The position numbers were made by a program, and so were the translations under genes. Positions 19,201 through 24,000 of a stretch of DNA of 25,849 bases are shown here, piece by piece. The stretch is taken from positions 1 to 25,849 of the IMG/VR virus record IMGVR_UViG_3300021963_000584; one strand, given 5' to 3'. The stretch comes from a virus. The number at the start of each line of letters is the position of its first letter. Position 1 is the first letter of the stretch. The notes beneath the pieces are model-generated. The model saw only the letters and a list, made by a program, of their open reading frames with translations. It was not told the DNA's origin and did no database searches.

Positions 19201-20238
19201 ATGGAATACCAAAGACCAATATACGACATTAGCATTAAGGAAGCCTTACATTTGGGGGTTGATGAAGTGGCATTTGTACACGACCCTGCGATGCAAGAAT
19301 TATTTGTGGCAATGGCCAACGAAATAACAAAACTATTATTATCTGAAGATGATAAGATGATAGTTACAGGACCAGCATTGGTTCCAGATAAACTTATCTA
19401 TCGTGTTCACCCAAAGACAGGTGCTGAATATTACATCCGTTTTAGTGAAGAAGTAATTCAACAAATTGTGCAAAGATATTTCACCCAAAACCGTCAAATT
19501 CATTTCAACCTGGAGCATAATAAAGAAAATGACGTACAAGGGGTTATTTTGGAAAGCTGGATAGTGGAAGACCCATCGATGGATAAAAGTGCTGCAATGG
19601 GCTTTAAACAGCTTCAAAAAGGTACATGGATGATAAGTGTTAAAGTTCAAAGTAAAGAATTCTGGAATGACTATGTAAAAACTGGTAAGGTTCGTGGGTT
19701 TTCAATAGAAGGTGCATTTGGTCAAAGCCTTGCTGAAGCAATGGCAAACCAGGAATTGGTTGAACCACATTCTGGTGAACACCAGGATGAATTTATTCCA
19801 CGTTGTGTTGCATATCATGTTGATAAAGAAAATATGGACCCCGATCAGGCAACAGCCATTTGCTATACCAAGTGGGATGAAAAGCTTAGGGTTGGTGAAA
19901 AAATTGGTTATGACTTTGATGGTACCATCAGCACCCGTATAGGCCAGGCAATGGCTGAAAAGGATATTAAGTCTGGTTCAACCGTTTACATCATATCAGC
20001 ACGTTCATCTGCATCTGGTATGTATAGAATTGCTGACAAACTTGGAATACCGCATGACCGTGTATTTGCGATGGGTGGTAACTTGGCTAAAGCTGAAAAG
20101 GTTAAAGAACTTGGTTTGGATACATTCTATGACAATAACAGAATGGTAAGACGTTTGCTTCCACGTGGTGTAGGTGTTAACTTCACCTTAAGTGAACAGG
20201 AAATTGAAATACTAATTAAAGCTGCGATAGAAGCATAA
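19201..20238 (+). CDS. Prohead protease (XkdF-like S78-type) fused to a HAD-like domain
   Basis: This 345-residue protein has two linked parts. Residues about 50-185 read as a phage serine prohead protease: MIVTGPALVPDKLIYRVHP, IHFNLEHNKEND (candidate catalytic H106), VILESWIVEDPSMDKS, GTWMISVKV, and GFSIEGAFG with candidate catalytic S168. Such proteases mature the head by cutting scaffold and capsid. Next comes DEFIPRCVAYHVDKENMDPDQATAICYTKW (about 197-225), a motif found at the end of phage head proteins and of unknown function. Residues 236-345 have HAD phosphatase motifs: DFDGT (238-242), ISARS with S266, K297/K300, and YDNN (310-313). The protease part is usually encoded beside the portal or capsid gene; here it follows the tape measure. 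Either the HAD part is active on a nucleotide or phosphopeptide, or it is structural. Confidence 0.85.
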   Translation: MEYQRPIYDISIKEALHLGVDEVAFVHDPAMQELFVAMANEITKLLLSEDDKMIVTGPALVPDKLIYRVHPKTGAEYYIRFSEEVIQQIVQRYFTQNRQIHFNLEHNKENDVQGVILESWIVEDPSMDKSAAMGFKQLQKGTWMISVKVQSKEFWNDYVKTGKVRGFSIEGAFGQSLAEAMANQELVEPHSGEHQDEFIPRCVAYHVDKENMDPDQATAICYTKWDEKLRVGEKIGYDFDGTISTRIGQAMAEKDIKSGSTVYIISARSSASGMYRIADKLGIPHDRVFAMGGNLAKAEKVKELGLDTFYDNNRMVRRLLPRGVGVNFTLSEQEIEILIKAAIEA

Positions 20239-20272
20239 AAAAAGTTTCAAAAAAATTTGGTGGATAAGAAAA
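20237..20272 (+). repeat. Inverted repeat, left copy (36 bp identical to 21146-21181 in reverse)
   Basis: The 36 bases, from A7-GTTTC-A7 through TTTGGTGGATAAGAAAA, recur perfectly on the opposite strand at 21146-21181. With mismatches, the match extends to 20286 and 21132. It includes the -33 element and the start of the spacer of the two facing promoters. The arms flank about 900 bp holding the ncRNA candidates and the AlkB gene. Confidence 0.95.
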
Positions 20273-20286
20273 TAGTCGTATCTTTG
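20256..20286 (+). promoter_or_regulatory. Promoter of Bacteroidota type (-33 TTTG, -7 TATCTTTG)
   Basis: TTTG (20256-20259), a 19-base spacer and TATCTTTG (20279-20286) match the Bacteroidota housekeeping promoter (TTTG, TAnnTTTG) perfectly. It points rightward, away from the virion block's last gene and into the convergent gene's end. No protein gene lies downstream on this strand, so it points to a small RNA. A-rich sequence upstream may act as an UP-like element. Confidence 0.8.
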
Positions 20287-20290
20287 TTGG

Positions 20291-20400
20291 GTCGTAAGGA
20301 AACAACGAAGGGCGAGGGTAAGACCACGAAGTAACTCAGAGGTACGTTGCCCAAAATTTCTAAACTTTTTTACAAAAAAAAGGGGCTTTAGGCCCCTTCT
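20291..20400 (+). ncRNA. Candidate small RNA between the convergent blocks
   Basis: A perfect promoter ends at 20286, so transcription should start near 20291 and would run to a T6 tract (20366-20371) or to the palindrome at 20380-20398. No start codon and frame of useful length exists. GC-rich for this genome, it contains a possible H-type pseudoknot: CAACG (20303-20307) with CGTTG (20345-20349), and GGGC (20310-20313) with GCCC (20349-20352), sharing one base. Size would be 80-110 nt. It might base-pair with a host or phage message, or with the convergent AlkB transcript's 3' end. No known RNA family was recognised. Confidence 0.5.
20373..20398 (-). terminator. Terminator of the AlkB-like gene, possibly bidirectional
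   Basis: Arms AAGGGGC (20380-20386) and GCCCCTT (20392-20398) form a 7-bp stem with a 5-base loop. Read leftward it is followed by eight T (the A8 run 20374-20381), a good rho-independent terminator for the leftward gene ending at 20402. Read rightward the T tract is weaker (TTCTGTTATTTT). Confidence 0.85.
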
Positions 20401-20401
20401 G

Positions 20402-20989
20402 TTATTTTATAGTTCTGAATGTTAGGTTTATTCTTGGCTCCGCATTCTTTTGTTTAGGTATGCAGTGTTCCCAGTCCTTTTGCATTTCCTCAGACATTAC
20501 CAATACACTTCTATCTTTTAGTTCGTAAGTGATAGTTTCTTTGGTGTGTTTGTTTCTAATTTTGAATTTGCGTGTACCACCAAATGAGAATGATACGATA
20601 GGCCCAGTCAATTCTGGTTCGTCATCTGAGTGCCATGCAATGCTGTGGTCACCATCTTGGTAGTAGTTACATAGTACAGCGTTAAATTTGTAAAATGGTT
20701 TACCTATTGCAACTGCGGCAACATTATTTAACATACTAAGATATGGTGTCCATTGGTTTGGTTGGCATACTATACCGCTATAGGTATATGTTTTGCCAGC
20801 GTCACCATAGTATGCTTGTAGGCGTGGGATGTTATGGGTTTTGCCATACAATTTTATTGTACGTTGTTCCCACAATAAGTCCCAAGATAATTCAGCGAAA
20901 AAGTCGATGCCGATACCATCCAATAGATGGTCCAAGATAACTACGTTCGCTTCTGCGTAGTTGTTGTCAGCTGTTATTGCATTTTCCAT
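20402..20989 (-). CDS. AlkB-like 2-oxoglutarate/Fe(II)-dependent dioxygenase
   Basis: The 195-residue protein has the full AlkB active site. H120 and D122 (WHSDD) and H175 (WEHCIP) bind iron; R186 in RINLTFR and R192 would hold 2-oxoglutarate. Other AlkB signatures are PRLQAYYGDAGKTYTYSG (residues 55-72), NYYQDGDHSIAWHSDDEPEL and SFSFGGTRKFKIRNK. This spacing is closest to the ALKBH2/3-type branch, which removes methyl groups from 1-methyladenine and 3-methylcytosine in DNA or RNA by oxidation. In phages it may repair alkylated genome or RNA. Its own promoter lies 4 bases upstream of the ATG (start at the ATG itself gives a leaderless mRNA), and a structured RNA transcribed from a second promoter runs into it. 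Length is normal for the family. Confidence 0.95.
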   Translation of the reverse strand: MENAITADNNYAEANVVILDHLLDGIGIDFFAELSWDLLWEQRTIKLYGKTHNIPRLQAYYGDAGKTYTYSGIVCQPNQWTPYLSMLNNVAAVAIGKPFYKFNAVLCNYYQDGDHSIAWHSDDEPELTGPIVSFSFGGTRKFKIRNKHTKETITYELKDRSVLVMSEEMQKDWEHCIPKQKNAEPRINLTFRTIK

Positions 20990-21127: not shown

Positions 21128-21131
21128 AGTA

Positions 21132-21162
21132 CAAAGATACAGCTTTTTTCTTATCCACCAAA
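21132..21162 (-). promoter_or_regulatory. Promoter of the structured RNA (Bacteroidota type)
   Basis: Read leftward, TTTG (21162-21159), a 19-base spacer beginning GTGGATAAGAAAA, and TATCTTTG (21139-21132). It is the right arm of the inverted repeat shared with the promoter at 20256-20286. Confidence 0.85.
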
Positions 21163-21181
21163 TTTTTTTGAAACTTTTTTT
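21146..21181 (-). repeat. Inverted repeat, right copy
   Basis: Perfect reverse complement of 20237-20272, including the A-rich upstream region and -33 element of the promoter. Confidence 0.95.
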
Positions 21182-21220
21182 AAAAAAAATAAGAAAGGGC
21201 CAGATCGGCCCTTTCTTATT
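21182..21220 (-). terminator. Rho-independent terminator of the leftward small-gene operon
   Basis: A perfect 14-bp stem has arms at 21188-21201 and 21207-21220 and a 5-base loop. Read leftward it runs into eight T (A8 at 21182-21189, partly inside the stem base). It overlaps the stop codon of the gene at 21219 and insulates the downstream RNA promoter. Confidence 0.92.
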
Positions 21221-21527
21221 ATAACGCTTTTACTAATTCACTGAACTTTGCTTTGGCTAATTCAAGTGTTGGGCAATTGAACGCCCTATCATTACCAAAG
21301 TCATTATCATCTGGATACATGCAGAAGGCACCTTTAGCTGTTTCCATGTATCTGGCTTCAAAGACCACATAGTGGATATTACCATCGTAGTCTACCTGGT
21401 AAATAAAAACTGTTTCAAGATATTCTTCAATTTGGTTATAGTGTATCATCATTCTGATACCTTTTTTCTTATCGTCTGCGATATTACCTTTGCGGTGGAA
21501 TTGTTTAGGTAAGTGATGTAATGTCAT
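21219..21527 (-). CDS. Small hypothetical protein, function unknown
   Basis: The 102-residue protein starts at an ATG that overlaps the stop of the 36-residue gene upstream (ATGA), so it is translationally coupled. A basic N-terminal part (MTLHHLPKQFHRKGNIADDKKK) precedes a beta-rich middle (EYLETVFIYQVDYDGNIHYVVFEARYM) and a C-terminal helix (TLELAKAKFSELVKAL). The pattern Y-x-V-x-Y-D-G-x-x-H-Y-V-x-F-E-A looks like a small beta-sheet fold. I do not recognise a family. Confidence 0.7.
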   Translation of the reverse strand: MTLHHLPKQFHRKGNIADDKKKGIRMMIHYNQIEEYLETVFIYQVDYDGNIHYVVFEARYMETAKGAFCMYPDDNDFGNDRAFNCPTLELAKAKFSELVKAL

Positions 21528-21838: not shown

Positions 21839-21870
21839 CAAATGTAGTAGTTATTTTTTTACGGTGCAAC
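21839..21870 (-). promoter_or_regulatory. Promoter of the three-gene small operon (Bacteroidota type, weaker)
   Basis: Read leftward: GTTG (21870-21867), a 20-base spacer and TACATTTG (21846-21839), then 20 bases to the ATG at 21818. The -7 element matches TAnnTTTG; the -33 element and the conserved spacer are poorer than in the other four. It overlaps the stop codon of the helicase gene. Confidence 0.65.
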
Positions 21871-23951
21871 TATTTGTTTAAATATTTTTTACATTCTTCA
21901 AACCATCCGTTTTTTTGCGCTGCATCTAATGACCCAGATGATGCTTTAGTCCATTCACCTATACTTTTATATTTTTTAGCTTCTTCAATACAACGTTCCT
22001 TTATCCAGTAACCCCTAGGTTTATTTTTTATAACCATATGTACCGTACATTCTTCTAACCAACCATTTTTACGTGCCCATTGATATGATGAACTTGAACC
22101 AAGTTGCCATTCAGTTTTTGAATTATATTTTTTAGCTTCTTCAATACAATTATTTTTATCATTCCAATGACCTTGTTTAACATACACTATATGTGCTGTG
22201 CATTCTTCTAACCAACCATTTTTACGTGCAACATTAAATGACCCACCAGAACTTTTTTGCCATTCACGAACACGTTTATATTTTTTAGCTTCTTCAATAC
22301 AACGTTCTTTGGTCCAATAACCTTTTGGGGTATAATTGGTCATATGACTAATACATTCATCAAACCAACCATTTTTACGTGCAATATTTTCAGAACCACC
22401 AGAATTTATTTTCCATTCATTTGGTGAATTATATTTTGCAGCTTCTTCAATACAACGTTCTTTTGTCCACCAACCCATAGGTAAAACTTGATACTCACCC
22501 AACAAATATTTAACCTCACGTATCTTAGCAAAGCTGTGGTTTACCATCGCTTCACCATTGTCTTTGTGCAATAGGTCTTTGAAGAAACGAATACCTTCTG
22601 GCAACCCCAAGAACTCAACTGGTTGTATACCAGTTTCTCTACGTTGACGTGGTTCACCTGGTTCACCTGGTTCACGTGGTTCACGTGGTGATCTAGGTGT
22701 TCTTACAACAGGAATTTCAAGGTCCAAAAAGTTCTCACCATTATACTTCGTATAGTAGCTTTCATCACACAAACACATCGTGGCTGTCATAATGTATTCA
22801 TAATTGTGTTCAAGGTCCTTAGGGGCAATTTTAAAGAAGAATTTCTTTCTACCATCTGGGTGCTTACGAATAACACGACACATCAATTGAAAGATACGGT
22901 CGATGTTCTGTGTACCAGACATATCAACCACGTTTATCATTCTTGTAAAGCTAAACCCTAAAATACCACGACCAACTACAATAAGAACACGACAGTCCTC
23001 ATCATCTTTAAAGCGTTGAATTTCTGATGATGTGCTGTCGGTATCGGACGTACTTAACGCAACGTTTATATTCTTTGACATGAAGTAGTTTCTAATTTGT
23101 CTGGCTTGTTCCTGTGAACGTGCGACTATCATCGTCTTATCCAAAGCCTTCAATGGTAGGTGCCACCCAGTCAATGCCGATACACCAGCTTCAATTGATG
23201 TAAATTCTTTTAACACCGACTTTAATTTGTTAACAAGAACACCTAAAAAGTCATTCAACGTGTTAATGGTTTCTTGTTCCTGGAATTGGTAGTCTTCACG
23301 AACTTCACCAGACGCATTAAAGTCCGTGCGGTTCATTTTGTAATTAGAAGATGCTACAACAACTGTAAGGTCTTCAACCATGTCATAGTCAAGAATTTCA
23401 TTTACGGTAATTGTAATAAGCGGAAATTCGTTTAAGATGAATATTGAAGGTGTACCAGTCAACATCAACTGATGTTTAACACCAGCTTGTCTAATGATAT
23501 TCTGAACCATATCAGCAAAGTAGAATTGGTGTGCTTCATCAACAACCACCATATCGAATTTTGGTAATTTCTTAACACCTTTGATAGACTGTGGGATAGT
23601 TACAACAACCTGTGCATCGCATTCATCCATTTCACGTTTGCGTGTAATTTCACAATGCGTAAAGTCTGGGTTGGCACCCACAATTTCTTCATAGTATTGT
23701 GAACGCAATACGTTTGTACCGTGGGCCAATACCAACACCCTAAAGTCTGGGTTATCTTTTAGAATGGTATCTATCATACAGATAGACATAAGAGTTTTAC
23801 CAGCACTTGGGCATGCAGCAAACACCGTTGGTAGTTCTTGGGTTGCAAGTGAAGTGATGACAGTTTGCATCTTTTCAGCTTGGTATCCCAGTTGTTTCAA
23901 GTTTCTTTTAGCAAACCATTCGCTAAAGTCGTAGTTAATTTTTGTTTCCAT
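21870..23951 (-). CDS. SF2 DNA/RNA helicase with four C-terminal repeats
   Basis: The start is the ATG at 23951 (693 residues); the TTG at 23972 is inside the promoter box. The helicase core has motif I ACPSAGKT (46-53), motif II DEAH (138-141), motif III TGTP (165-168) and a motif-VI-like QLMCRVIRK (355-363), where R359 and R362 are the arginine-finger positions. A proline linker (PREPREPGEPGEP, about 422-434) and a short region follow. Residues 493-693 are four repeats of 47-53 residues with the plan G-x-W-x-K-E-R-C-I-E-E-A-K-K-Y-x-S-x-x-E-W-x-x-x-S-x-G-S, then ARKNGWxEEC. They resemble small DNA-binding modules added to phage nucleases and helicases. A role in replication or recombination is likely. 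The gene has its own promoter. Confidence 0.9.
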   Translation of the reverse strand: METKINYDFSEWFAKRNLKQLGYQAEKMQTVITSLATQELPTVFAACPSAGKTLMSICMIDTILKDNPDFRVLVLAHGTNVLRSQYYEEIVGANPDFTHCEITRKREMDECDAQVVVTIPQSIKGVKKLPKFDMVVVDEAHQFYFADMVQNIIRQAGVKHQLMLTGTPSIFILNEFPLITITVNEILDYDMVEDLTVVVASSNYKMNRTDFNASGEVREDYQFQEQETINTLNDFLGVLVNKLKSVLKEFTSIEAGVSALTGWHLPLKALDKTMIVARSQEQARQIRNYFMSKNINVALSTSDTDSTSSEIQRFKDDEDCRVLIVVGRGILGFSFTRMINVVDMSGTQNIDRIFQLMCRVIRKHPDGRKKFFFKIAPKDLEHNYEYIMTATMCLCDESYYTKYNGENFLDLEIPVVRTPRSPREPREPGEPGEPRQRRETGIQPVEFLGLPEGIRFFKDLLHKDNGEAMVNHSFAKIREVKYLLGEYQVLPMGWWTKERCIEEAAKYNSPNEWKINSGGSENIARKNGWFDECISHMTNYTPKGYWTKERCIEEAKKYKRVREWQKSSGGSFNVARKNGWLEECTAHIVYVKQGHWNDKNNCIEEAKKYNSKTEWQLGSSSSYQWARKNGWLEECTVHMVIKNKPRGYWIKERCIEEAKKYKSIGEWTKASSGSLDAAQKNGWFEECKKYLNK
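21873..22475 (-). repeat. Four imperfect tandem repeats of about 150 bp in the helicase gene
   Basis: Units at 22323-22475, 22173-22322, 22014-22172 and 21873-22013 (in translation order) code for the four protein repeats. The CIEEA(K/A)KY core and the ARKNGW(L/F) core are the best-preserved parts. The units are diverged enough to be stable but close enough to mark recent duplication. Confidence 0.9.
22651..22686 (-). repeat. Four tandem 9-bp repeats coding for the (R/G)EP linker
   Basis: On the + strand the unit is GGTTCAC(C/G)T, four times in a row, two of each variant. It encodes the EP-rich flexible linker between the helicase core and the repeat domain. Like the VEP repeat in the scaffold-like gene it keeps frame if its copy number changes. 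Confidence 0.9.
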
Positions 23952-23969
23952 AGTATTGAATTTATATTG

Positions 23970-24000
23970 CAAATATACAACTTATTTTTTACCCACCAAA
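23970..24000 (-). promoter_or_regulatory. Promoter of the helicase gene (Bacteroidota type)
   Basis: Read leftward: TTTG (24000-23997), a 19-base spacer starting GTGGGTAAAAAA, and TATATTTG (23977-23970), a perfect TAnnTTTG. Transcription starts near 23965, leaving a leader of about 14 bases before the ATG at 23951. The box differs from the late-type TATATTTA only in its last base. Confidence 0.85.

Follow-up and report, generated by a model that had tools for sequence, protein, structure and literature searches.

Promoters recognised by Bacteroidota sigma-A (sigma-ABfr) carry a TTTG box at −33 and a TAnnTTTG box at −7 (PMC7366714); in Flavobacterium psychrophilum TAnnTTTG lies at −12 to −5 (PMC9723704), and transcription starts 5 nt past the −7 box (PMC7366714, PMC9723704). 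Phage-encoded small RNAs (review: PMC12197685) are a second known kind, which the predicted transcript discussed below resembles in being short, gene-free and promoter-driven. Phage moron cassettes carry an extra gene together with promoters and a terminator of its own, lie between conserved operons and are missing in near relatives. The locus described here belongs to a virus infecting Bacteroidota bacteria and lies in a 25,849-nt stretch of DNA, referred to below as the window. Between two convergent operons, promoter P1 and the predicted transcript RNA1 read rightwards into a shared terminator, on the other side of which alkB, P2, RNA2 and P3 follow in that order, all reading leftwards (Table 1). 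On balance, P1 is probably a genuine sigma-A-type phage promoter within a lineage-specific alkB cassette, which it would provide with a short accessory transcript.

Table 1. Features of the alkB cassette and its right border (positions in the window).
Feature	Position	Strand	Remarks
A-tract stretch	20239..20255	+	UP-element-like; upstream of P1; kept in the P3 copy
P1, orphan promoter	20256..20286	+	TTTGGTGGATAAGAAAATAGTCGTATCTTTG; exactly TTTG-N19-TATCTTTG, plus GTGGATAA extension
RNA1, predicted short non-coding transcript	20291..20405	+	start from spacing; no ORF; G+C outlier; 3' end uncertain
Bidirectional terminator hairpin	20378..20400 (hairpin 20380-20398)	both	U-tract strong for leftward alkB, weak for rightward RNA1
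alkB, 2OG-Fe(II) oxygenase, 195 aa	20402..20989	-	PF13532 E 1.6e-29; phrog_21963
P2	20994..21024	-	promoter giving leaderless alkB mRNA (predicted), ATG 4 nt past TTTG
RNA2, predicted leader between P3 and P2	21025..21127	-	four perfect 7-8 bp helices
P3, upstream alkB promoter	21132..21162	-	inverted copy of P1
Terminator of gene 21219-21527	21188..21220	-	at the site of the relatives' single terminator; right edge of inserted cassette

Both boxes of P1 and their 19-nt spacing match those of Bacteroidota sigma-A promoters exactly (TTTG at −33, a 19-nt spacer, TAnnTTTG at −7); unlike the plain promoters of that class, the P1 type has a GTGG-N-TAA extension and upstream A-tracts common to phages. 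DNA resembling the A-tract upstream of P1 also precedes promoters in the sequences L015, L062, L109 and L005. The window contains four perfect TTTG-N19-TANNTTTG sites, against 0.4 expected, and none of 100 shuffles reached four. The exact word TTTGGTGGATAAGAAAA occurs three times, at P1 (20256, + strand), P2 (21024, −) and P3 (21162, −). The stretches 20236–20287 and 21131–21182 are 52-nt inverted repeats, 94% complementary, whose arms hold P1 and P3. A perfect rightward promoter, present in duplicate, had been proposed in a first-pass annotation of this DNA, and both statements were borne out by these matches. A phase-variable switch operating through the inverted repeats was considered and rejected, since the flipped segment would be the mirror image of the same layout and no on/off effect would be expected.

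The extended promoter, TTTGGTGG-N-TAA-N11-TANNTTTG, has matches in at least 120 viral contig stretches, and related DNA was found in Riemerella phages and microviruses. A search of 84,980 host genomes with a strict version of the motif gave no match, which, the pattern being so strict, is only weak evidence that the extension is particular to phages. Where a gene follows the extended promoter directly, its ATG lies 4 nt past TTTG (six distinct cases, with no other distance below 14 nt). Among the matches listed there are 87 distinct extended promoters, which simple ORF rules sort approximately into 42 with a gene within 60 nt, 34 classed as having a 60–400 nt leader before the gene (some of these "leaders" hold short genes under the cut-off), five inside ORFs, three far from any gene and three that reach a convergent gene first. 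Of the last three, L028 is followed after 352 nt by a gene on the same strand and is part of the shared-leader family described below, and the boxes of L067 are the least typical; among the listed promoters P1 is thus an outlier, a nearly unique copy in facing only a convergent gene, for a type that normally drives genes.

Near-identical leaders of ~350 nt, starting with TCCGCAGAGACACGTAATATACGTATCACCCCAGAGGG and apparently structured, follow the same extended promoter in L028, L037, L053, L085, L090, L112 and L117. Leaders of ~90 nt that run from promoter to gene, with a terminator just before the ATG, occur in L030 (2340, +), L036 (6866, +), L040 (2364, −), L115 (4614, −), L125 (1544, +), L103 (13619, −) and L104 (4566, −). 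Their sequences differ by family, and the loop of the 5' hairpin is complementary over 6–7 nt to the apical loop of the terminator, with single P values of 0.003–0.08; these leaders are possibly an undescribed group of attenuators. In Riemerella phage RAP44 (2052–2220) the leader contains GTTAAACCATC and its complement GATGGTTTAAC, and a second GTTAAACCATC lies at the start codon of the gene that follows; from its sequence, this leader looks like a translational switch able to hide the start codon.

The position of TAnnTTTG at −12 to −5, together with the ATG found 4 nt past TTTG in the leaderless examples, places the predicted start of RNA1 at about 20291, and a transcript from P1 probably exists. 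RNA polymerase would start there and produce a free-standing RNA of ~110 nt, ending, perhaps leakily, at the hairpin common to alkB. This hairpin has 8 pairs (−12.3 kcal/mol) and also terminates alkB from the opposite side, in accordance with the earlier proposal that the transcript ends near a shared terminator. RNA1 would measure about 110–115 nt if the hairpin stops the polymerase; its 3' end is uncertain because the rightward U-tract, CTGTTATTTT, falls far short of the leftward one in strength. The same annotation had RNA1 perhaps acting on the 3' region of alkB or on a host target, which is not supported; the overlap of RNA1 with the alkB 3' end proved to be the shared terminator hairpin only, an ordinary convergent arrangement.

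No ORF of at least 50 aa lies downstream of P1, and the longest start-codon frame within predicted RNA1 has 14 codons (TTG at 20347), which agrees with the gene-free stretch noted previously. The RNA1 body (20291–20351, 61 nt) has 52% G+C against 36% for the window; 0.6% of all 61-nt segments are as rich, and of 564 overlapping non-coding segments of this length none but the body exceeds 49%. Such a G+C- and purine-rich composition is unusual for non-coding DNA in the window, and the G+C richness is the sole positive sign that the stretch may not be filler. RNA1 folds no better than its shuffles (z −0.82 to +0.51), and its body contains no perfect stem of 6 bp. An H-type pseudoknot of CAACG/CGUUG and GGGC/GCCC, assembled by hand, was discarded, as it left no nucleotides for the crossing loop. 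Rfam searches of the window yielded zero matches at family thresholds and nothing credible at permissive ones. Homologues of the body were found neither in the 49 phage records that have the promoter or proteins of this phage in common with it nor in the phage collection, where matches lay only around the promoter and terminator. Pairing of RNA1 with gene starts in the window was nowhere convincing, the best case, among about 30 genes, being equalled by 1 of 100 shuffles.

Syntenic relatives that share the protease are L159 and L160 (81%, best segment) and L005 (68%). All three have a 43-codon ORF and a single terminator immediately after the protease gene; the convergent gene comes next in L159 and L005, and L160 ends within that gene. 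The convergent protein of L005 matches the product of window gene 21219–21527 (BLASTP E 6e-11), and the correspondingly placed L159 protein is similar to it by eye. P1, RNA1, alkB, P2, RNA2 and P3 are all absent at the syntenic locus of these relatives, and the right-hand terminator lies at the site of theirs; segment 20236–21190, judged from this comparison, is therefore a lineage-specific, moron-like alkB insertion or replacement, known from one copy. Genome contigs contained no prophage relatives, the helicase revealed no relatives, and the two relatives found by terminase (82%) are on contigs too short to reach the cassette region. Free variation of the region in relatives, promoter apart, had been named in advance as telling against a functional RNA, and the finding comes close to it: relatives with the same flanks lack the promoter and the RNA both. 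The C-terminal parts of the XkdF-like head protease (window 19201–20238, +; L159 6001–7350; L005 6001–7056) differ among relatives, being nucleotidase-like in the window, unrelated in L005 and present as both in tandem in L159. The helicase gene (window 21870–23972, −) has about four 153-bp tandem repeats in its 3' part, and the corresponding C-terminal repeats match Vibrio and Rhizobium phage proteins.

The favoured reading is that RNA1 is a small accessory transcription unit which the cassette brought with it. For it count the perfect promoter, the 52-nt module common to P3 and many phages, the lack of an ORF, the hairpin on the right strand, the rich G+C of the body, the near-unique convergent setting and the absence of the cassette in relatives; against it count the weak rightward U-tract and the lack of a body homologue, fold, Rfam match or target. 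Of the functional early sRNA originally suggested, the sequence supports an orphan promoter from which a short non-coding RNA is probably transcribed; the functional role is not supported, there being no homologue, Rfam match, significant fold or standout target. A selected function of RNA1 in trans, as a riboregulator, is accordingly a tentative proposal that we consider possible but rather doubtful; otherwise P1 acts in cis only or is a by-product of cassette assembly.

The strongest competitor is the by-product reading, for which we see an appreciable chance, equal to that of a trans function and short of even: P1 and the stretch after it would be left over from cassette assembly, e.g., by recombination between promoter copies, and the RNA would be made but have no role. 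The 52-nt promoter copies flanking the insert, the lack of any trace of P1 or RNA1 in relatives and a body with neither fold nor relatives all agree with this, but P1 is intact to its last base and the body has a G+C- and purine-rich composition unusual for local non-coding DNA. Transcriptional interference is unlikely. Polymerase from P1, which faces P2 and P3, would often have to pass the terminator into alkB, collide with transcription from these promoters and make antisense RNA, thereby setting the level or timing of alkB; the rightward CTGTTATTTT tract is indeed poor compared with the leftward one, but the 8-pair hairpin may stop polymerase well enough, and the late structural operon points the same way and would interfere without P1.

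It is also quite improbable that RNA1 originated as a regulated 5' leader whose rightward gene has since been lost or replaced. That 34 of the 87 listed promoters are classed with a 60–400 nt leader before a gene, and that some such leaders close with a terminator immediately ahead of the ATG, speaks for this origin; against it, no gene remnant follows RNA1, and RNA1 lacks the loop–terminator complementarity. As a present-day leader of that kind RNA1 was rejected, its longest complement being 4 nt (P 0.79) and no rightward gene following it.

The alkB gene has relatives of only 25–46% identity, with no similar promoter beside them, and a search of 50 other phage records, run without a positive control, did not find it. 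Its predicted leader, RNA2, contains the helices AAUAAGC/GCUUAUU, GGGUGGUU/AACCACCC, GGUCUAAA/UUUAGACC and AUUUAGA/UCUAAAU, i.e., four perfect helices of at least 7 bp, where shuffles average 0.35 and 0 of 500 reach four; the folding energy is mildly low (MFE z −1.3 to −1.95). The third helix overlaps both the first and the fourth and forms a crossing with the second, so that RNA2 is plausible as an alkB leader that switches or folds into a pseudoknot. If any RNA in the locus is regulatory, RNA2 is a better candidate than RNA1. A two-RNA control circuit for the phage AlkB, in which the twin promoters P1 and P3 fire together and RNA1 pairs with or competes for RNA2, setting the choice between leadered (P3) and leaderless (P2) alkB mRNA, is highly improbable. 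Homology of the two RNAs was rejected (local score 19, against 16.9 ± 3.1 for shuffles), as was a duplex between them (−33.7 against −28.8 ± 3.8; 21 of 200 shuffles were as good, which is not significant). Finally, a 14-codon peptide from the TTG at 20347 is scarcely credible: the start codon has a purine tract (AGAGG) ahead of it, but the frame overlaps the terminator hairpin, no relative is available for comparing the frame, and Bacteroidota mRNAs naturally lack Shine-Dalgarno sequences (PMC6847099).

Compared with the systems named at the outset, neither the promoter nor a phage small RNA (PMC12197685) is new in kind. Like moron cassettes, the alkB cassette has its own promoters (P2/P3) and terminator (20378–20400) around the extra gene, lies between conserved operons and is lacking at this locus in the close relatives L159, L160 and L005. 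Unlike them, it adds a gene-free promoter unit facing alkB and a predicted structured leader. No lysogeny is known for the phage. Small transcription units in moron-like phage cassettes are a known kind, to which the RNA1 unit is a candidate addition. A limited literature search found little on phage-encoded sRNAs in Bacteroidota; if the transcript is real, RNA1 would add a further candidate to the phage small RNAs of this group. The extended promoter is a useful marker, being widespread in Bacteroidota phages and having a predictable start site, and it points to transcription units overlooked by ORF-based annotation, structured leaders among them.
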